From the NCBI RefSeq assembly GCF_027460265.1, contig NZ_JAPZBC010000001.1, positions 1,736,001-1,800,000 on the forward strand: a stretch of 64,000 bases of DNA, given 5' to 3'. This DNA comes from Streptomyces sp. WMMC940. GTDB taxonomy: Bacteria; Actinomycetota; Actinomycetes; Streptomycetales; Streptomycetaceae. Below the pieces are notes generated by a model. That model had not been told where the DNA came from. It ran no database searches and was given only the letters and a program-made list of their open reading frames with translations. Position 1 is the stretch's first letter. The number at the start of each line of letters is the position of its first letter. Below, piece by piece: positions 1 to 9,408 of this stretch. Made by a program: the position numbers and the translations under genes.

Positions 1-606
1 CCGTACGGCCGTGCGGTAGTCGGAGGCCGAGGCATGGAGGTCGCCTCGGTCGCGCAGGGCTTCGGCGAGGGCGGCCCGGGTCAGTGGCTGTCCCGCGTCG
101 TTGACGAGGAGCACACCGCCGGGACGGGCGATTCCGGAGCCGGTGGTGAAGTAGTCGGCGTGTACCCCGCTGGTGTGCACGCTCGCCTGCAGGCGCGCCC
201 CGCAGCCGAACCACTGCTCGGTGCCGTCGTCGCCGACGCGGCGGAACTCCATCCACACGTATCCGACGCGGGTCTTGCCGGAGGCGCCCTCGCCCAGCAG
301 GTTCCAGTGCATGGTGCGTTCCGAACCGCCGAACGTGGACAGGCGGTTGGGGCGGAGGCTGGCGTCGAAGAGGAACGGCAGCAGCAGTTCCAGGGCCTTG
401 GACTTGCCCGAACCGTTCTGGCCGCGCAGCAGCAGGCGGCCCTGGTGGAAGGTGAACGTCTCGTCGTAGTAGCGCCAGACGTTGAGGATGCCGGCGCGGT
501 GGGGCTGCCAGCGGCTGCCGATGGCATCGGCCGCTCGGGCGGCCCCTGCCACGGCCGGTCCGGTCGGCTCCGGCCGCCGGGGGAAGGGAAGCTCGGTCAC
601 GCTCAC
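1..606 (-). CDS. jetC: JetC-like SMC ATPase of a Wadjet type I system, N-terminal 202 residues (partial)
   Basis: The gene begins at GTG 606 and runs off the left edge, so only the N-terminal head of a very large protein is present. A Walker A P-loop, GQNGSGKSKA, lies at about residues 62-71, after the stretch ILNVWRYYDETFTFHQGRLLL that is typical of TIGR02680/JetC. In known Wadjet systems JetC is the SMC-like motor that loops and cleaves circular plasmid DNA with JetA, JetB and the nuclease JetD. GTG overlaps the TGA of jetB (GTGA), which suggests translational coupling. The coiled coils, Walker B and jetD lie outside the window. The family call rests on the P-loop context and the jetA-jetB-jetC order. 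Confidence 0.85.
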   Translation of the reverse strand, partial: MSVTELPFPRRPEPTGPAVAGAARAADAIGSRWQPHRAGILNVWRYYDETFTFHQGRLLLRGQNGSGKSKALELLLPFLFDASLRPNRLSTFGGSERTMHWNLLGEGASGKTRVGYVWMEFRRVGDDGTEQWFGCGARLQASVHTSGVHADYFTTGSGIARPGGVLLVNDAGQPLTRAALAEALRDRGDLHASASDYRTAVR

Positions 607-1946
607 TGCTGGTCTCCTTCTGCGGCGACACGCTCGGCAGCCGTGCCGCCTGCCGCCCTGGGGGCGGCGTCCCCATCCGGTCCGGGCTTGTCGTCCCGGT
701 CCGGACTCGTCGTCTGTGTCAGGCGGTAGCGGTAGGCGGCCGGGCACGCGACGACGCGGCCCCCGGTCCGGCGGGCCAGGCCGATGTCACGCAGGACGCG
801 TACGGCGTCGTCGGACAGCCGGGCCGCGCCGTCCTCGGACTGGTACGCCCTGGCCCACCGCGGGAAGCGCCGCAGCAGGTCCTCTCCGGCCTCGGCGAGC
901 TGCTCGGGCAGCAGTCCGGCGGGCGCGGCGCACAGCGGCTCCAGGAGGAGCAGCGCGGCGACCCGGGCGGTGGACGTGTCGTCGGGGAAGCGGACGTCGG
1001 TGGCGAGCCCGTCCGGGTCCACGAGCAGGAAGCCCTCGGCTCGTTCCTCCAGCAGGAAACCGGCCTGCTCGACGGAGCGGCGCAGGATCTGGCGTCCGGT
1101 CAGGGAGGTGACGTAGCCCAGCTCGTCGTCGGTGAGGTCCGTCCGGTACAGCACGGGGTCGTCGAAGAGGCGGCGCAGCACCGAGTGGCGCAGCCTCAGG
1201 TTGCGTTGCGCGTCCGTGGCGGCCCGCTCGCCGTGCTCCTCGTCCGCCGTGCCGTCGGCGACCGCGCCGCCGTAACGGCGCTCGCGCACCAGACCGGTGA
1301 GGAGTTCCCCGAACCGCGCGGGCACCTCGTCCGGGGGTACGGCGAGCCGGGAGGCGCCGACGGGCGCGGCGGGCAGCCGCATCAGCAGCGTGGTGTCCAC
1401 CCGGTAGAGGACCTTCGCCTCGGCTGACTCGACGTACGCCTCGGTGGTCCCGTCGACCGCGCGCAGCACGTCGTACGACTCCAGCAGTTTCAGGACGTCG
1501 ACGAACGCCATTCGCTCCGGCTTGTGCACCGGGTCGAACGCGGTGAGCGCCCGGTCGGCCGCCGTGGCCTGCACGACACGGTCGGCGAGCATGCCGATGG
1601 TCGTCATCGGCATGGACAGCAGCTCGGCGGCGGTCACGCACAGCAGCACGTAACGCCGGCGGTCGAACGGGGCCCGGCCGGAACGGGCCCTGCGGGCCGG
1701 CCGGGTGCCGTCCGGGTCGGCGCGGACCTTGGTGAGGCGGGCGTAGCCGCGGCGCGGTTCCACCACCAGGCTCCAGCCGCAGGTGTAGTCGAACCACTGG
1801 GCCAGCGGCTCGCGACGGCGGCGTACCAGTTCGAAGCCGGCCGGGTCGGTGGCCTCGGTCAGCAGGGGCCGGGCCAGCAGGAGACGGATGGCACGGGCGA
1901 CCTGCTCCCTTTCCGCGGCGGCGAGTTGGTTGGCGAGGGTGCTCAT
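603..1946 (-). CDS. jetB: JetB-like protein (TIGR02678 family), Wadjet type I
   Basis: A 447-residue protein starting MSTLANQLAAAEREQVARAI. It matches what I know of TIGR02678/JetB, the kleisin-associated winged-helix (KITE-like) subunit that binds the JetA kleisin. Recognisable parts are an early arginine-rich segment (PLAQWFDYTCGW), a central region (KPERMAFVDVLKLLESYDVL) and a C-terminal winged-helix-like part ending in a polar, proline-rich tail. It has no catalytic motif, as expected for a scaffold subunit. ATG 1946 overlaps the jetA stop (ATGA) and its own stop overlaps the jetC start, so the three genes read as one coupled transcript. An alternative name is simply TIGR02678 family protein. 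Confidence 0.83.
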   Translation of the reverse strand: MSTLANQLAAAEREQVARAIRLLLARPLLTEATDPAGFELVRRRREPLAQWFDYTCGWSLVVEPRRGYARLTKVRADPDGTRPARRARSGRAPFDRRRYVLLCVTAAELLSMPMTTIGMLADRVVQATAADRALTAFDPVHKPERMAFVDVLKLLESYDVLRAVDGTTEAYVESAEAKVLYRVDTTLLMRLPAAPVGASRLAVPPDEVPARFGELLTGLVRERRYGGAVADGTADEEHGERAATDAQRNLRLRHSVLRRLFDDPVLYRTDLTDDELGYVTSLTGRQILRRSVEQAGFLLEERAEGFLLVDPDGLATDVRFPDDTSTARVAALLLLEPLCAAPAGLLPEQLAEAGEDLLRRFPRWARAYQSEDGAARLSDDAVRVLRDIGLARRTGGRVVACPAAYRYRLTQTTSPDRDDKPGPDGDAAPRAAGGTAAERVAAEGDQQ

Positions 1947-3493
1947 CCGGCGGCCTCCCGCCGCGCGGCGCCCGGCCGTGGCAGGGCGCTCGCTCCGGCC
2001 GCTGTGACGAGCACGAGGTAGTCCGGTCCGGCGAGTGTGCCCTTCGTCGTGCGCAGTACGGCGGTGCGCTCGTCGGGAGGTGGGGACAGCGCGATCTCCA
2101 CCCGGCCGTCCCCCGTCGTGGCGCGGCGTGAGCCGGTCGTGTCCGGCCGGGCGGCCAGGGCCCGGCCCACCAGGTCGAGCAGCCGCTCGAAGACGGCGGG
2201 ATCCAGGGTGCCGAAGGAGGACAGGCGCACGGGGCCGTCCGTCTCCAACGCCTGCCAGGCACGCGCGAGTTCCGCCCGCTCCGCGCGGGCCCGCTCCGCG
2301 CGTTCGGCCCTGACGGCCGTGACGTCCCGGACCCTGGCCGTGCGGGTGAAGCGCTCCGTCCGTCCGCTGGTGCGCAGCAGCGCCGACACCTCCACGGGCG
2401 GGGCCTCGGACCAGGAACGGGACGACGGGATCAACTCCGGGTCCGGGTGGGCGAGGTGGGCGTGGCGCGCCGGGCCGAGTCCGAAGGCGGCCGACCACAG
2501 CCGGTGCAGGTCCTCCTCCGCCGGGGCGGCCGCGAACCAGCGCGCCAGTTCCCGGAAGTCCTGCACGGCGCTGGAGGAGCGGCGCCGTGACTCGTTGATC
2601 CGCTCCAGGACCTGCAGCAGCGAGACGATGGCGCGCCGGGCGATGTCGTGCAGCTGCTCGATCCGGGGCCGTGCCCCGTCGTCCGGCAGGAACCACGCCC
2701 GCAGGCCCGCCCAGCGCGCCCGCCTGCGCTCCAGCCAGCCGGCCGCGGGGTCCTCACCGGCGACCGGGGGCAGTTCGGCCCCGCGCAGGGCCCGCTCGCG
2801 CAGCACGGCGGTCCCCCGCTCCTCCACCCGGGCCACGGCGGCGGCGACCGCCTGCCCGCGCCGGTCGAGGTTGACCAGGAACTCCTGCAGATACGCGACA
2901 GTGGCGGCCTTGACCTCGCGGAAGACCTCCAGGTCCGCCCCCTCGGCGCGCAGGAGGCGCTGCAGTTCGCCGTTGAACGCCTTGGTGTTCTCCACCAGAG
3001 CCTCCAGATGGCCCTCCAGCTCGCGCAGCGTGCTGAAGATCCGCCGGTCGGCGGAGGCGGGTTCGCCGGACAGCAGGCACAGCTCGTCCAGCCGGTCGGC
3101 GATGGCCTCCAGCACGGCCGTCTGCAACGCCCCCGTGGAGGCCAGCACCTCGAGCGCGTGCCGCACTCCGGCGAGAGCCGCCTCACCCCGGCGGGTCAGC
3201 GAGTACTGGAGGTTGCGCCGCTCGTACTCCTCGGCCGTACGGTAGTTCTCCGCGTGGTTGTGCACGACGTCGAGGAGCTCCCACTTCACGAGCCGGGCGA
3301 GCGCGTCGTGCAGTTCCCCGTCGTCGACGTCCGCCACCCAGCCCACCGGGCGCAGTCGCTCGCGCACCGCGTCGGCCCCCAGCGTGGTTTCGAGGTGCTC
3401 GCCGGCCACGCCGAAGGCGTCCAGCACCGCCCCGTACAGGTCGGCCTTCTCCCCCGTCGTGAACCGGAACATCTCCGGTGGCACCCTGCGCAC
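1943..3493 (-). CDS. jetA: JetA-like kleisin (TIGR02677 family), Wadjet type I, first gene of the operon
   Basis: A 516-residue protein beginning VRRVPPEMFRFTTGEKADLY, the start typical of TIGR02677/JetA. The N-terminus resembles a winged helix (residues about 8-100). A long helical middle follows, rich in Glu, Arg and Leu (EGHLEALVENTKAFNGELQRL), consistent with a kleisin that bridges SMC heads. GTG 3493 was chosen because a GGGAGGGA ribosome site lies about 9 bases upstream. An in-frame ATG at 3526 has no comparable site. It is the first gene of jetA-jetB-jetC. The upstream region runs into a decayed kinase fragment on the other strand, so the promoter should lie in 3494-3680. Confidence 0.84.
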   Translation of the reverse strand: MRRVPPEMFRFTTGEKADLYGAVLDAFGVAGEHLETTLGADAVRERLRPVGWVADVDDGELHDALARLVKWELLDVVHNHAENYRTAEEYERRNLQYSLTRRGEAALAGVRHALEVLASTGALQTAVLEAIADRLDELCLLSGEPASADRRIFSTLRELEGHLEALVENTKAFNGELQRLLRAEGADLEVFREVKAATVAYLQEFLVNLDRRGQAVAAAVARVEERGTAVLRERALRGAELPPVAGEDPAAGWLERRRARWAGLRAWFLPDDGARPRIEQLHDIARRAIVSLLQVLERINESRRRSSSAVQDFRELARWFAAAPAEEDLHRLWSAAFGLGPARHAHLAHPDPELIPSSRSWSEAPPVEVSALLRTSGRTERFTRTARVRDVTAVRAERAERARAERAELARAWQALETDGPVRLSSFGTLDPAVFERLLDLVGRALAARPDTTGSRRATTGDGRVEIALSPPPDERTAVLRTTKGTLAGPDYLVLVTAAGASALPRPGAARREAAG

Positions 3494-3678
3494 GCCTGTC
3501 GTCCCTCCCCATCGCCCCGGCGGCATCGGCGATCTCCACCGTAGAGGGCGGCACCGACATCACGGGCCCGGTCACGGAAGAGGGGTGTGCGCCCCGGTCT
3601 GGGGAATGGGCGGCGACCGGCCTCCCGCGGGCACGGGCGGTGGTCTAGCGTGACCGTGGACACCGGTTCCGCCCGATT

Positions 3679-3957: not shown

Positions 3958-4155
3958 CTACTGAGCAGCGAAGCCGACGAACGCCGCCCAAGCGGAAGCA
4001 GCGACCGAGAGAGCAGGTCGGCTTGTGTCCTTGGAGTCACGGACACGAACGACTCGGGCGCAGTCGGCGACCTCGACGCACTCTCCTCCGGCCCCACCGC
4101 TGTAGCTGCTCTTACGCCAGCGCAGTTCGCCCACCGCACTCAGGGTCTCGTTCAC
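3958..4155 (-). CDS. DUF397 domain protein (WhiJ-associated small protein)
   Basis: A 65-residue protein starting at GTG 4155, one base after the stop of the upstream Xre gene. It carries the DUF397 signature WRKSSYSGGAGGECVEVAD and then VRVRDSKDTSRPALSV. DUF397 proteins are small partners of Xre/DUF5753 regulators in the many WhiJ-like loci of Streptomyces. They are thought to antagonise or modulate the regulator, possibly as a toxin-antitoxin-like pair. The pair is tightly coupled, and the ribosome site GGAGAGG lies within the end of the regulator gene. A hairpin follows at 3917-3952. Confidence 0.88.
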   Translation of the reverse strand: MNETLSAVGELRWRKSSYSGGAGGECVEVADCARVVRVRDSKDTSRPALSVAASAWAAFVGFAAQ

Positions 4156-4156
4156 T

Positions 4157-5035
4157 TCACACCTCTCCAAGCAGCTTCTCAACGAAGGCCATTGACTCGC
4201 GCGGAGTGAGAGCCTGCGCACGGATGATGCCGTACCGCGACGCGATTCCCTGGACCTCCCGCCGGTCGCTGACCATTGTGCTGCGTCCCTGCGCTTCCAG
4301 GTAAGCCACTTGATCGCCACCAGCGCGGTACAACAGGGTAAACGGCCCGTCCACGCCTGCGTTGTCCTCACGGTCGAGCGGCATGATCTGAATCTCGACG
4401 TTCCGGTACACGCTGACCAGAATCAACTGCTCCAGTTGACCGCGCATGACCGGCCAGCCGCCCAACGGCCGACGCACAATCGCCTCGTCGATGACGAAGC
4501 TCAACAGAGGGGCTGGCCTGCGCTCGAAGACACTCTGGCGCGCGAGCCGGGCCACGACCCGCTGCTCCAAGGTCTCCTCGTCCAGCAACGGCCGCCACAT
4601 GCCGAACACCGCCCGCATGTACTCCTCAGTCTGAAGCAGTCCCGGCACCGCTTGAGTCGCGTACACCCACAGCTCGACCGCCTCCCCCTCCAACCGCGCC
4701 GCATCCCGGAAGAACGCCGGATACTGCGCCCGGGCCACCTCCTCCTTCATCTCCTGGAGGACCCCGCCCGCGTCCAGCACCTCGTCCGCCCGGTCGATGA
4801 ACCTCGGCGGCGGCACCCGCCGCCCCTGCTCGTACGCGGCGATGGTCGACACCGAGTACCCCGTCAGCGAGCCGAACTCGGGCCGCTCCAAGCCCGCCCG
4901 CAACCGGAACCGCTTCAACTGCCGCCCGAAGACCCGCAGGACCCCGGAGCCGGAGCCGGCGTCCGATTCCGGATGCCGCTCCTCACCCTCGCCGCCCCCG
5001 GACGCCCCGTCCACCAGCCCCGTAGGTTCACTCAT
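4157..5035 (-). CDS. Helix-turn-helix regulator with DUF5753 (WhiJ-like)
   Basis: A 292-residue protein if started at ATG 5035 (MSEPTGLVDG), which has GGAGG 12 bases upstream. A longer in-frame start at 5059 is less likely. Residues about 35-95 form an Xre-type helix-turn-helix (LKRFRLRAGLERPEFGSLTGYSVSTIAAYEQG...). The rest is a DUF5753 domain with the usual ATQAVPGLLQTEEYMRAVF, VDGPFTLLYR and ALTPRESMAFVEKLL segments. Such proteins repress or tune development and antibiotic production, working with a DUF397 partner (the next gene) and often with the divergent ATPase-type protein seen here at 5183. The exact target is unknown. Confidence 0.88.
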   Translation of the reverse strand: MSEPTGLVDGASGGGEGEERHPESDAGSGSGVLRVFGRQLKRFRLRAGLERPEFGSLTGYSVSTIAAYEQGRRVPPPRFIDRADEVLDAGGVLQEMKEEVARAQYPAFFRDAARLEGEAVELWVYATQAVPGLLQTEEYMRAVFGMWRPLLDEETLEQRVVARLARQSVFERRPAPLLSFVIDEAIVRRPLGGWPVMRGQLEQLILVSVYRNVEIQIMPLDREDNAGVDGPFTLLYRAGGDQVAYLEAQGRSTMVSDRREVQGIASRYGIIRAQALTPRESMAFVEKLLGEV

Positions 5036-5182
5036 CCCCGTACTACCTCCCTCGGCCAACGCGCCCCCGCGCCGACCGTCACGCTCCGTCCCGCCTACAC
5101 ACGCACACCAGCCACTTACAGCGACGCTCCGTGTGCGAGCCGTATCTGGTCACGCTAGGACGGCAGCGGCAGCGTGGGCCAC

Positions 5183-5653
5183 ATGAACAGCCGAATCTCC
5201 ACCCCCGGGGTGGACGCCCCCGGCGTCGAGGCCGAAACCGCCCATCCCCTGCACGAGTTCGAGATGGCGTTCACCTCCTCTCCGCGCGGCGCCCGCCTCG
5301 CCCGCAGACTGGTCTCGCACCGGCTCGACACGTGGGGGCACCCGTACGGCGGCCAGGTCAACGACACGCTCACGCTGATCACCGCCGAGCTGGCCGCCAA
5401 CGCCGTCCGGCACGGGCGTGTCGCCGGACGGGACTTCCACGTCCGGCTCACCCACGCCACCGGCACCGTGCGCGTCGAGGTCACCGACACCCGGACCGAA
5501 CGCGTGCCCGTGCTCACCGACACGGAACCGCCGGGCGACGCGGAGTCCGGGCGGGGTCTGCTGATCGTCGCGGGACTGGCGACCCGCTGGGCCGTGGCGC
5601 CGCGCGAGGGCGCGCCGGGCAAGACGGTGTGGGCGGAACTGCGCCTGGCGTGA
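5183..5653 (+). CDS. Anti-sigma-factor-like ATP-binding protein (HATPase, RsbW type)
   Basis: A 156-residue protein. An N-terminal FTSSPRGARLARRLV precedes a GHKL ATP-binding core with the N-box LITAELAANAVRHG and the G-box SGRGLLIVAGLATRWAV, near residues 69-82 and 115-131. This is the RsbW/SpoIIAB-like fold, which phosphorylates or binds partner proteins. The start at ATG 5183 is three codons inside an in-frame GTG (5174). It is divergent from the Xre/DUF397 pair and completes the three-gene WhiJ-type cluster common in Streptomyces. The partner is unknown; control of a sigma factor or of the Xre protein is inference from context. Confidence 0.85.
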   Translation: MNSRISTPGVDAPGVEAETAHPLHEFEMAFTSSPRGARLARRLVSHRLDTWGHPYGGQVNDTLTLITAELAANAVRHGRVAGRDFHVRLTHATGTVRVEVTDTRTERVPVLTDTEPPGDAESGRGLLIVAGLATRWAVAPREGAPGKTVWAELRLA

Positions 5654-5835: not shown

Positions 5836-5857
5836 CATCCAGACCGCAATCCGCGGG

Positions 5858-7186
5858 TCAGGAGCCCTTTTCGGCAGGCTCAAGGATCGCCACGCACTCC
5901 ACATGATGCGTCATCGGGAACAGGTCGAACGCCCGCAGCGTCCGCGGCCGGTAGCCGTTCTCGCGGAAGTACGCCAGGTCCCGTGCGAGGGCCGCCGGGT
6001 CGCAGGCGACGTAGGCGATGCGGCGGGCGCCGAGGCCCGAGACGTACTCGACGGTGGAGCGGCCGGCGCCCGCGCGGGGCGGGTCGAGGACGACGAGGTC
6101 GGCGTCGGTGATGCCGGTGCGGGGCAGGACGGACTCGACCTTGCCCTGCTCGATGCGCACCCGCGGCAGGTCCTGGAGGTTGTGGCGGGCGTCCTCCACC
6201 GCGCGCTTGCCGGACTCGATGCCGAGTACCGCGCCCTTCTCGCCGACGCGTTGGGCGATCGCTCCCGCGAACAGGCCGACGCCGCAGTAGAGATCGAGCG
6301 CGGTGTCGCCCTTGCGCGGCAGCAGACCCTGCATCACGGCCTCGACGAGCATCTGGGCCGCCTTCGGGTGGACCTGCCAGAAGCCGCCCATGCCGACCCG
6401 GTAGGTGCGGTCGTCCGCACGCTCGCGGACGAAGGGGCGGCCGTGGACGCGGTGCACACTGCCGTCGCCTTCGTGGACGCGCAGGACGGAGACCGGCCGG
6501 TCCAGTTCCACGATCGGGAGCCGGGCACCGGGCCGCGGGGTGAGGATCACCTGGCGGTCCTGGGAACCCGTCGCGGCGATGGCCTCGATCGAGGCCATGC
6601 CCTTCCAGCTCCGCTCCTCGATGCCGAGTTCCGAGACCCCGGGCGCCGCGATCATGCAGTGCTCGACCGGTTCCACATCGTGGGAGCGGTGCCTGCGCAG
6701 CCCCGCGCGCCCCTCCGTGTCGACGGCGTACTGCACCCTCGTGCGCCAGGCCGGGACCTGGCCCGCGGGCAGCTTGTCGCCCTCCGCCGGAACGACGGTG
6801 CCGTCCCAGCCGGCCTCCTCCGGGGTGAGGCCCGCGAGCCGCTTCAGCTGCTCCGCGACGACCTCGCCCTTGAAGCGCCGCTGCGCACCCGGCTTGGCGT
6901 GCTGCCAGTCGCAGCCGCCGCACCGTCCGGGCCCGGCGTAAGGGCACGGCGCCTCGACGCGGTCCTTGGACGACTCCAGGATGCGCACGGCGTCGGCGCG
7001 CAGATAGCGGGAGCCCTCCTCACCCTCGGTGATCCGGGCCACGACCTTCTCGCCGGGCAGCGCGTGCCGGACGAAGAGGACCCGGCCGGCGTCGGTGCGG
7101 GCGATGCAGTGCCCGCCGTGCGCGACGGGGCCGACCTCGACCTCGTACTCCTCCCCGGCGAGCGAGGCATCGGAAGCGTTCGGCAT
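5858..7186 (-). CDS. Class I SAM-dependent RNA (uracil) methyltransferase, RumA/TrmA type with TRAM domain
   Basis: A 442-residue protein. An N-terminal TRAM domain (YEVEVGPVAHGGHCIAR...LPGEKVVARI) precedes a cysteine cluster (CPYAGPGRCGGCDWQH) that in RumA-type enzymes holds a 4Fe-4S cluster. The methyltransferase core has ALDLYCGVGLFAGAIA for SAM binding, VVLDPPRAG, and a C-terminal YVACDPAALARDL whose Cys is the catalytic nucleophile of m5U methyltransferases. It probably methylates a uracil of rRNA or tRNA; which base cannot be told. ATG 7186 was chosen because TRAM starts shortly after it. The KimA-like permease gene lies upstream on the same strand with a 116-base gap. Confidence 0.88.
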   Translation of the reverse strand: MPNASDASLAGEEYEVEVGPVAHGGHCIARTDAGRVLFVRHALPGEKVVARITEGEEGSRYLRADAVRILESSKDRVEAPCPYAGPGRCGGCDWQHAKPGAQRRFKGEVVAEQLKRLAGLTPEEAGWDGTVVPAEGDKLPAGQVPAWRTRVQYAVDTEGRAGLRRHRSHDVEPVEHCMIAAPGVSELGIEERSWKGMASIEAIAATGSQDRQVILTPRPGARLPIVELDRPVSVLRVHEGDGSVHRVHGRPFVRERADDRTYRVGMGGFWQVHPKAAQMLVEAVMQGLLPRKGDTALDLYCGVGLFAGAIAQRVGEKGAVLGIESGKRAVEDARHNLQDLPRVRIEQGKVESVLPRTGITDADLVVLDPPRAGAGRSTVEYVSGLGARRIAYVACDPAALARDLAYFRENGYRPRTLRAFDLFPMTHHVECVAILEPAEKGS

Positions 7187-7256
7187 GGCGGGATGACTCC
7201 AGGGATACGAGAGGGGGCCGTCGCCCGTCCGCGGACGACAGCCCCCCAGTCTACGT

Positions 7257-7302: not shown

Positions 7303-9408
7303 TCAGCTCCGGCCGCTGGGCTCCTTGGTCTGGTCGCTCACCGGGCCACGGCGCACCGATCCGGGCGCGTTCCACTCCTGGCGCTTCCTGGCCCGCTTCT
7401 TGGCCAGCTCGGAGGACTGGAGCTGGTAGGGGACGGAGGTGACCATGACGCCCGGGGTGAACAGCAGCCTGCCCTTGAGGCGCAGGGCGCTCTGGTTGTG
7501 CAGCAGGTGCTCCCACCAGTGGCCGACCACGTACTCGGGGATGATCACGCTGACGGCGTCGCGCGGGCTCTCCCGCCGCAGGCTCCTCACATACTCGATG
7601 ATCGGCCGGGTGATCTCCCGGTACGGCGAGTGGAGGATCTTCAGCGGGATGTTGATGCCGCGCCGGTCCCACTCGTCCTTCAGCGCCTTGGTCTCCGCCG
7701 GGTCGACGTCGATGCTGAGGGCCTCCAGCTTGTCGGAGCGCATGAGCTTGGCGTAGGCGAGGGCCCGCAGGGTCGGCCGGTGGACCTTGGACACCAGCAC
7801 GATGGAGTGGACCCGGGAGGGCCGGACGCTGTCGTCGGAGGGCTCGACGGGTGCGGCGATCTCGTCGGACACCCGGTCGTAGTGGCGGCGGATCGCCGAC
7901 ATGGTCCCGTAGAAGATCACCATGCCCAGGAGCGCCACCCAGGCGCCGTGCGTGAACTTGGTGACGAGGACGACGACCAGGACGAGACCGGTGAAGAAGG
8001 CGCCGAAGGCGTTGATCGCCCGCGAGCGGATCATGCGGCGCCGTGCGGCCGGGTCCCGCTCCGTCCGCAGATGGCGGTTCCAGTGCCGGACCATGCCGGT
8101 CTGGCTGAGGGTGAAGGAGACGAAGACACCGACGATGTAGAGCTGGATGAGCTTCGTGGAGTCGGCGTCGTAGACCCAGACCAGCAGCATGGCCGCACCG
8201 GCGAGCAGCACGATGCCGTTGGAGAAGGCGAGCCGGTCGCCGCGGGTGTGCAGCTGGCGCGGCAGGTACCGGTCCTGGGCGAGGATCGAGCCGAGCAGCG
8301 GGAAGCCGTTGTACGCCGTGTTGGCGGCCAGGAAGAGGACGAGTGCGGTGGCCGCGGCGAGCAGGACGAAGAAGAAGGTCTGCTCGCCGAAGACGGCTGC
8401 CGCGACCTGCGAGATCACCGGGTCCTGGACGTAGTCGGGGCCGACCGGCTGTCCGTTCTGGATGAGGTCGTGGGCGGGGTTCTCGGCCATCCGCACGTCG
8501 CTGGCCATGGCCAGGCCGATGATGCCGCAGAACATGGTGACCGCGAGCATGCCCATGAGCAGCAGTGTCGTGGCGGCGTTCCGGCTCTTGGGCTTGCGGA
8601 AGGCGGGGACGCCGTTGCTGATGGCCTCGACTCCGGTGAGCGCGGCGCAGCCGGAGGAGAAGGCGCGCAGCAGCAGGAAGACCATGGCGAAGCCGGCCAG
8701 GCCCTGCTGCTCGGGCTTGATCTCGAAGTCCGCGGTCGGGGCGCGCATGGTGTCGTCGAGGACGAGGCCCTTGAAGGCGCCCCAGGCGATCATGGTGAAG
8801 ACGCCGAAGACGAAGACGTAGGTGGGGATCGCGAAGAGCTTCCCGGACTCCTTGACCCCGCGCAGGTTCATCAGGGTCAGCAGCAGGATGATGACGACGG
8901 CGCTGAGCACCTTGTGCTCGACCACGAAGTGGACCGCGGAGCCCAGGTTCTCCACTCCGGAGGAGATCGACACGGCCACGGTGAGGACGTAGTCGACGAG
9001 GAGGGCGCTGGCGACGGTGAGGCCGGCCCTCGGGCCGAGGTTGGTGTTCGCCACCTCGTAGTCGCCGCCGCCGCTCGGGTACGCGTGGACGTTCTGCCGG
9101 TAGGAGGCGACGACGGTGAACATCAGGACCACGACGGCGGCCGCGATCCAGGGGCTGTACTGGTAGGCCGACACACCCGCGATCGAGAGGACCAGCAGCA
9201 CTTCCCCGGGTGCGTAGGCCACCGAGGACAGCGGGTCGGAGGCGAACACCGGGAGTGCGATCCGCTTCGGCAGGAGCGTCTCGCCCAGCCTGTCGCTCCG
9301 CAGCGCCCGGCCGATCAGGATGCGTTTGGGCAGGTCGGTCAGTTTGGACACGGAGAGGATCGTAAGGGGTTCCTCTTGACGGCGCCCACCCGTGGGCCCC
9401 TCCGCCAC
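7303..9408 (-). CDS. APC-superfamily potassium importer, KimA-like
   Basis: A 701-residue protein with about 12 hydrophobic segments between residues 60 and 500, then a soluble C-terminal domain of about 200 residues. The start of the membrane part (LPVFASDPLSSVAYAPGE) and the segment AYPSGGGDYEVA are typical of the KimA/YdaO-type K+/H+ symporter family, often labelled amino acid permease. Divergent TrkA-type genes and nearby kdpDE support a potassium role. GTG 9408 has AGAGG 8 bases upstream; a shorter start at VSKLTDLPKR is possible. KimA in Bacillus is inhibited by c-di-AMP; I see no ydaO riboswitch in the leader of this gene. Confidence 0.75.
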   Translation of the reverse strand: MAEGPTGGRRQEEPLTILSVSKLTDLPKRILIGRALRSDRLGETLLPKRIALPVFASDPLSSVAYAPGEVLLVLSIAGVSAYQYSPWIAAAVVVLMFTVVASYRQNVHAYPSGGGDYEVANTNLGPRAGLTVASALLVDYVLTVAVSISSGVENLGSAVHFVVEHKVLSAVVIILLLTLMNLRGVKESGKLFAIPTYVFVFGVFTMIAWGAFKGLVLDDTMRAPTADFEIKPEQQGLAGFAMVFLLLRAFSSGCAALTGVEAISNGVPAFRKPKSRNAATTLLLMGMLAVTMFCGIIGLAMASDVRMAENPAHDLIQNGQPVGPDYVQDPVISQVAAAVFGEQTFFFVLLAAATALVLFLAANTAYNGFPLLGSILAQDRYLPRQLHTRGDRLAFSNGIVLLAGAAMLLVWVYDADSTKLIQLYIVGVFVSFTLSQTGMVRHWNRHLRTERDPAARRRMIRSRAINAFGAFFTGLVLVVVLVTKFTHGAWVALLGMVIFYGTMSAIRRHYDRVSDEIAAPVEPSDDSVRPSRVHSIVLVSKVHRPTLRALAYAKLMRSDKLEALSIDVDPAETKALKDEWDRRGINIPLKILHSPYREITRPIIEYVRSLRRESPRDAVSVIIPEYVVGHWWEHLLHNQSALRLKGRLLFTPGVMVTSVPYQLQSSELAKKRARKRQEWNAPGSVRRGPVSDQTKEPSGRS

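Follow-up and report, generated by a model that had tools for sequence, protein, structure and literature searches.

Assayed Wadjet systems, relatives of the locus considered here, serve as the model for its mechanism (PMC10586767, PMC12287153 and PMC12647877, in the portions available). On that model, JetA (a kleisin), JetB (a KITE protein) and JetC (an SMC ATPase) would assemble into a dimeric loop-extruding motor, and once a small closed circular DNA had been fully extruded, the Toprim nuclease JetD would be licensed to cut it, with the outcome that small plasmids would be lost and the chromosome spared. The available text of PMC12647877 reports cleavage of naked circular DNA by nvJET, the Wadjet-II of Neobacillus vireti, and cites its structure; EptABCD is described in the available parts of PMC10586767 and PMC12287153 as restricting plasmids in Mycobacterium smegmatis. 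A complete jetABCD operon was recognised at the left edge of a window of 64,000 nucleotides (72% guanine plus cytosine) from the 7.67 Mb, three-contig genome of Streptomyces sp. WMMC940 (genome G000; the window is G000:C1:1736001-1800000, C1 being contig NZ_JAPZBC010000001.1), and the evidence set out below suggests that this Wadjet type II operon is, very probably, the cargo of an acquired 10.8 kb segment inserted at the 3' end of the rRNA methyltransferase gene rumA.

A further 18 kb leftward of the window was also read, its overlap with the window start being identical, and the relevant frames were compared with family profiles. The jetA and jetB frames scored far above cut-off (616 bits against 166 for TIGR02677, and 444 bits against 125 for TIGR02678, respectively), and because the window stops inside jetC, the part of that gene lying within it covered the first 170 positions of TIGR02680 at 282 bits, under the whole-protein cut-off. 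Completed to the left, JetC comprises 1379 amino acids, ends at G000:C1:1732467 and matches TIGR02680 at 1462 bits over positions 1-1354 of 1356; jetD follows directly, its product scoring 436 bits against TIGR02679. The likely start of jetA is the GTG at 3493, its open frame reaching further, to an ATG at 3526. Overlaps of ATGA (A/B), GTGA (B/C) and ATGA (C/D) couple the four genes into one operon, and no internal stop was found in any of the four frames. A broken or partial operon is ruled out by the full-length JetC, the presence of jetD to the left and the stop-free frames: jetABCD is real and complete, and ordered A-B-C-D. An earlier note on this DNA had described three coupled genes with JetA, JetB and JetC features, in the order A-B-C with ATGA and GTGA overlaps, and had expected jetD to lie leftward; the profile matches, the overlaps and the position of jetD all agree with that description, JetC does run on to its C-terminus left of position 1, neither its coiled coil nor jetD is missing there, and the SMC family is not a different one.

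The same note had, in addition, taken the system for Wadjet type I, and in this respect it has to be corrected. The best PADLOC models were JetA2 (934 bits), JetB2 (456 bits), JetC2 (1462 bits) and JetD2 (487 bits), while JetB1, JetC1 and JetD1 scored 26.7, 27.5 and 16.2 bits, respectively, and JetA1 gave no match. The corresponding Pfam domains were PF09660 (DUF2397) at 528 bits in JetA, PF09661 (DUF2398) at 351 bits in JetB, the SbcC-like Walker B domain PF13558 at 75 bits in JetC, and both PF11796 (DUF3323; 186 bits) and PF09664 (DUF2399; 169 bits) in JetD, so that the expectation of a TIGR02679 protein with DUF3322/toprim was borne out for TIGR02679 and not for DUF3322. Since type II models were the best and type II domains were present in all four genes, the operon is assigned by its profiles to Wadjet type II. 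A type I identity, on whose side it can be said that the A-B-C-D order and the overlaps do not diagnose a Wadjet type by themselves, is considered improbable in the extreme. The domain make-up of each type is said to go back to the original description by Doron in 2018. With respect to conserved motifs, a glutamate and a DxD motif, which we take to be the acidic residues of the Toprim fold, were kept in all 49 aligned JetD sequences, the Walker A lysine of JetC was kept in 49 of 50 relatives, and the serine and last glycine of its LSGG signature in 49 of 49. By analogy with the assayed systems, the most probable function of the present operon is to recognise small circular plasmids and cut them.

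Searches of PDB sequences returned, as relatives of note, the 9qe0 and 9qe1 chains named JetA, JetB and JetC; residues 22-502 of JetA, 21-187 of JetB and, as the best stretch, 78-397 of JetC matched the 9qe0 chains of the same names, and an ABC transporter at E = 0.08 was also among the matches in the JetA search. To judge from a reference list, 9qe0/9qe1 is probably the N. vireti type II complex. The locus therefore resembles nvJET to the extent that its JetA, JetB and JetC align with those of 9qe0, and differs from it in being actinobacterial, in the weak similarity of JetB (E = 3e-6) and in being known here from its sequence. The EptABCD system (Panas 2014) is a JetABCD-homologous SMC system that is likewise actinobacterial. 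That the operon might represent a housekeeping MukBEF-like condensin with no role in defence is highly improbable: JetC is indeed SMC-like, matching TIGR02168 at 21 bits, a score far below cut-off, but a nuclease gene is coupled to the operon, the distribution of the family is patchy (58 of 150 genus genomes, that of WMMC940 included, matched TIGR02680, 46 of them above cut-off), and the cassette appears to move independently of the core genome.

This is an ordinary defence operon, of a known kind and a known type; what is new is where it lies. The 10.8 kb segment has at either end a direct copy of the last ~65 nucleotides of rumA: the proximal copy completes the rumA reading frame, the distal one lies beyond jetD (Table 1), and the sequence beginning GTGCGCATTATGTGC, which in many relatives stands directly after rumA, was seen by eye to follow the distal and not the proximal copy. 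Proximal and distal direct copies such as these are what would be expected from integration by a single crossover at the rumA 3' end, and recombination at the repeat would be the route by which the segment entered. Distal copies with E < 1e-13, all of them direct, were also found in genomes G133, G196 (two), G027, G123, G013 and G122, and on the Wadjet contig of G355 (two); weaker matches to the rumA end fell on both strands.

A sequence-only model of the last 70 nucleotides of rumA plus 12 nucleotides (R1) and, as a control matched to it in information content (0.692 against 0.691 bits per position), a model of the 82-nucleotide rumA block just upstream (R2) were deployed against the 150 genomes. 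R1 gave more than one match in 98 of them, with 191 extra copies, and R2 in 19, with 21 extra copies. Among the matches listed, those of R2 lay exclusively at rumA or, in G063, at a fragment thereof, its 21 extras being weaker and none of them among those listed, which indicates that the repetition is a property of the 3' end of rumA and that the copies are not rumA paralogues. Positions of the R1 extra copies were taken from the best matches listed only: by hand count, 20 shared a contig with the rumA end (the G063 fragment included), 19 of these were on its strand, and 17 of the 19 were on its 3' side.

The association of this repeat with Wadjet operons was assessed in 53 JetC-centred stretches of ~20 kb (a few of them shorter), including those of WMMC940 and G139, 52 being scanned with R1 and that of G139 with an nhmmer model. 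A non-rumA copy above 50 bits was present in seven (WMMC940, G133, G063, G040, G123, G017 and G142), against 0.15 expected from the genome-wide density on the assumption of a mean genome of 8.7 Mb and an even spread; exclusion of WMMC940 and G133, which had prompted the idea, left five of 51, against 0.15 expected. A weak copy (27.6 bits) was recorded in the stretch from G080. Distances past the jetD stop amounted to 76 bp in WMMC940, 91 bp in G040, G017 and G355, 114 bp in G063, 1323 bp in G271 and 3351 bp in G133; the copy in G123 lies 368 bp upstream of jetA, and that in G142 overlaps an extended jetD frame. Equivalent scans of 63 named loci, a set that overlaps the genome set (at least L181, L183, L192, L214 and L238 are strains already included, and L183, L192 and L238 correspond to G355, G196 and G063, respectively), gave 18 R1 matches of at least 23.9 bits, all on the operon strand, plus one of 16.8 bits on the opposite strand. 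Five of the 18 were identified by R2 as rumA or its fragment. Ten non-rumA copies reached 45 bits, against 0.18 expected; all were on the operon strand, six sat 71-114 bp after jetD, and seven remain when L183, L192 and L238 are set aside.

The operon lies 3' of rumA, with the DUF397, XRE/DUF5753 and HATPase genes in between. At all 20 of the congener rumA sites compared the permease adjoins rumA, and the content past the rumA 3' end varies. The relative closest by rumA identity among the 150 genomes, G034, matched at 93% of nucleotides as far as the rumA stop, where the match ended; it is without the present segment and has different content after the stop, so that its site is not a clean empty one. 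G133 carries the same cassette in the same place, over 8.6 kb at 95% nucleotide identity, with permease and rumA at only 82%. A different Wadjet-II lineage (JetA ~35% identical) was located 3' of rumA, in the same orientation, at 1.2 kb in G149, 8.9 kb in G139 and 14.4 kb in G123, and an operon less than 9 kb from rumA was also found in G270, G271, Streptomyces sp. DHE7-1 (L182, in which rumA matches in two pieces) and S. albus NRRL F-4971 (L203). In G063, the operon and a 3' fragment of rumA (residues 405-463) are 5 kb apart, and the rest of rumA matches on another contig. By way of contrast, the related cassettes of G040, G108, G080 and G090 are 0.14-2 Mb from rumA, the flanks read there holding neither rumA nor the permease, so that the rumA 3' end appears to be a preferred place for the operon and not the sole one. 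Vertical inheritance at a fixed place was rejected, both on the disparity in G133 between cassette and rumA/permease identity and on the related cassettes that lie elsewhere without rumA flanks. The earlier note's proposal of an accessory defence site at the edge of a core region gains support, for its part, from this synteny and from the duplication of the rumA 3' end. On these comparisons, acquisition of the segment at the rumA 3' end is proposed with good confidence, and a role of the rumA end as an attachment site and defence hotspot with moderate confidence.

A number of observations weigh against the insertion of a plasmid-cutting cassette at the rumA end, and several of them would favour the alternative that Wadjet type II is spread through ordinary homologous recombination in a variable region, the rumA-3' copies being left from other elements, an alternative considered unlikely but deserving of some weight. 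Of the 53 JetC-centred stretches, 46 were without a non-rumA copy above 50 bits; searches of the genome of WMMC940 confined to the phage integrase (PF00589) and resolvase (PF00239) families found no member within ~0.7 Mb of the site, the nearest being at ~0.9 and ~0.7 Mb, respectively; and the homology of the cassette shared with G133 starts ~0.25 kb upstream of jetA and not at rumA. Homologous recombination alone would, however, account poorly for copies placed 71-114 bp past jetD, always on the operon strand, in WMMC940, G063, G040, G017, G355, L190, L197, L202 and L227, for the fact that the copy in G017 adjoins a Wadjet-II with a JetD only 39% identical, for the end of homology between WMMC940 and G355 precisely where the distal copy ends, and for copy numbers far above chance under an even spread. 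Further points on the adverse side are that the two copies in WMMC940 are not exact (37 of 40 nucleotides identical, 92.5%), that in G149, G139 and G270 Wadjet stands next to rumA yet the stretch read holds no distal copy, that clustering near rumA weakens the even-spread assumption behind the expected counts, and that 48 of the 63 named loci gave no R1 match of at least 23.9 bits. With copy counts far above those expected and most loci nevertheless without a copy, the association between the rumA end and Wadjet is a strong one, but for a minority of Wadjet operons. As regards function, JetD gave no match to PDB sequences at E <= 1, and the glutamate adjacent to the JetC Walker B motif, present in WMMC940, was found in 38 of 49 relatives.

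Insertion at the rumA end admits of a wider reading, offered tentatively as quite possible: the rumA 3' end would be a genus-wide Streptomyces attachment site for small, mostly recombinase-free defence cassettes, stacked in tandem and served by a recombinase in trans, their cargo consisting of Wadjet II lineages, type IIG restriction, Fic and caspase-type proteins, and each cassette ending in a rumA-end copy. The genes that separate the rumA end from Wadjet, or adjoin the two, varied across G063, G133, G271 and G355. In G063, the stretch from the rumA 3' fragment to the operon encodes a type IIG restriction enzyme-methyltransferase (L049:833-4312), and a rumA-end copy closes the segment that contains it; G133 carries a Fic protein, a similar frame being recognisable in G063 by its sequence start, and, between jetD and the distal copy, a DUF6119/TIGR04141 'sporadically distributed' protein (L047:14165-15961) without a PADLOC match, possibly an unrecognised defence gene; G271 carries a caspase/Mko-like protein and G355 a PDC-S27-like ATPase. 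Of 12 genomes searched, only G122 had a phage-integrase-family gene between rumA and the distal copy, a tyrosine recombinase frame of 186 amino acids (L077:4362-4922, PF00589) that is a candidate for the enzyme acting at the rumA-end site.

The staphylococcal cassette chromosome (SCC) elements form cargo-bearing arrays at the 3' end of rlmH, which encodes an rRNA methyltransferase; each element ends in a copy of this 3' end, and they employ ccr recombinases and repeats shorter than the ~65 nucleotides found here. The rumA-end copies that close cargo segments are reminiscent of these arrays, of which, should the tentative genus-wide reading be correct, they would be the actinobacterial counterpart. 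The integrative and conjugative elements (ICEs) of streptococci offer a second comparison, in that they insert into the same target gene family: the available text of PMC4701971 describes those at rumA as carrying a serine integrase, having repeats of 2-21 bp and altering the C-terminal part of rumA. The present locus differs in that its repeat is of ~65 nucleotides at the very 3' end of rumA and in the outcome of the integrase and resolvase searches (vide supra). A literature search from which most subscription journals were out of scope returned, among the matches listed, none that by title or start of abstract concerned rumA or an RNA methyltransferase as a Streptomyces integration site, or Wadjet in connection with rumA.

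At its simplest, the operon is a further example of Wadjet type II in a genus in which Wadjet has already been reported as relatively abundant; in its available portions, PMC10482375 gives a frequency of 42% in Actinobacteria and an enrichment towards Streptomyces chromosome ends. Records with a JetA relative were mostly from Streptomyces, with others from Kitasatospora, Amycolatopsis, Nonomuraea and further genera. The presence of rumA-end copies flanking different defence genes suggests how such defences are swapped. If the rumA end is an attachment site, it would show where to seek undescribed actinobacterial defence genes, provide one possible mechanism for the patchy occurrence of Wadjet in Streptomyces, and make the rumA locus a practical deletion target in transformation-resistant strains; if the genus-wide cassette reading is true, anti-plasmid immunity would be exchangeable.

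Table 1. Features of the segment and its flanks in Streptomyces sp. WMMC940 (window positions unless stated; calls for genes without a family match came from a rough GC-position script and are approximate)
Feature	Position	Strand	Remarks
jetC 5' part (type II SMC ATPase)	1..606	-	Walker A GQNGSGKS; GTGA overlap with jetB
jetB (type II, KITE-like)	603..1946	-	DUF2398/TIGR02678; ATGA overlap with jetA
jetA (type II, kleisin-like)	1943..3493	-	DUF2397/TIGR02677; 9qe0 JetA match E=1.6e-26
jetD (Toprim nuclease)	outside window, left: G000:C1:1731178-1732470	-	DUF3323+DUF2399/TIGR02679
Proximal repeat: rumA 3' end and first downstream bases, attachment-site-like	5848..5927	-	
Distal copy of rumA 3' end	outside window: G000:C1:1731038-1731102	same strand	57.4 bits; 76 bp past jetD stop
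Open frame with DUF397 domain, segment cargo	3958..4371	-	
XRE helix-turn-helix + DUF5753 regulator, segment cargo	4157..5059	-	stretch in common with G271, 91% of nucleotides
HATPase_c_2 protein (anti-sigma-like kinase), segment cargo	5174..5653	+	in the stretch shared with G271
rumA/RlmD, 23S rRNA (uracil-C5) methyltransferase, anchor gene	5858..7252	-	TIGR00479 205.6 bits, cut-off 183.55
Amino acid permease (AA_permease_2), conserved anchor beside rumA	7303..9408	-	

Elsewhere in the genome of WMMC940, in which the TIGR02680 search scored three of 19 first-look candidates, the remaining family matches were pieces, the set described above being the only complete jetABCD. Near a contig end, G000:C1:19415-22092 (L039:7415-10092) holds an incomplete Wadjet-II piece consisting of a JetD-like gene (DUF3323+DUF2399) and a C-terminal part of JetC; it adjoins an IS21-type transposon, and no JetA or JetB family match was recorded there. 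JetD pieces at G000:C1:5232506-5233696 and a JetA piece with an internal stop at 5265404-5265652 are probably remnants of another Wadjet-II, and a JetD C-terminus occurs at C1:759 kb. Contigs C2 and C3 were both examined as candidate co-resident plasmids. On C2 (L042, 19.7 kb), FtsK/SpoIIIE, Prim-Pol and integrase genes are accompanied by ones for ALF-repeat and trypsin/FG-GAP proteins, and the integrase match there and another at C1:3380465 score identically; C2 may be either an integrative element or a repeat left unplaced. C3 (14.5 kb) carries chromosome-like genes.

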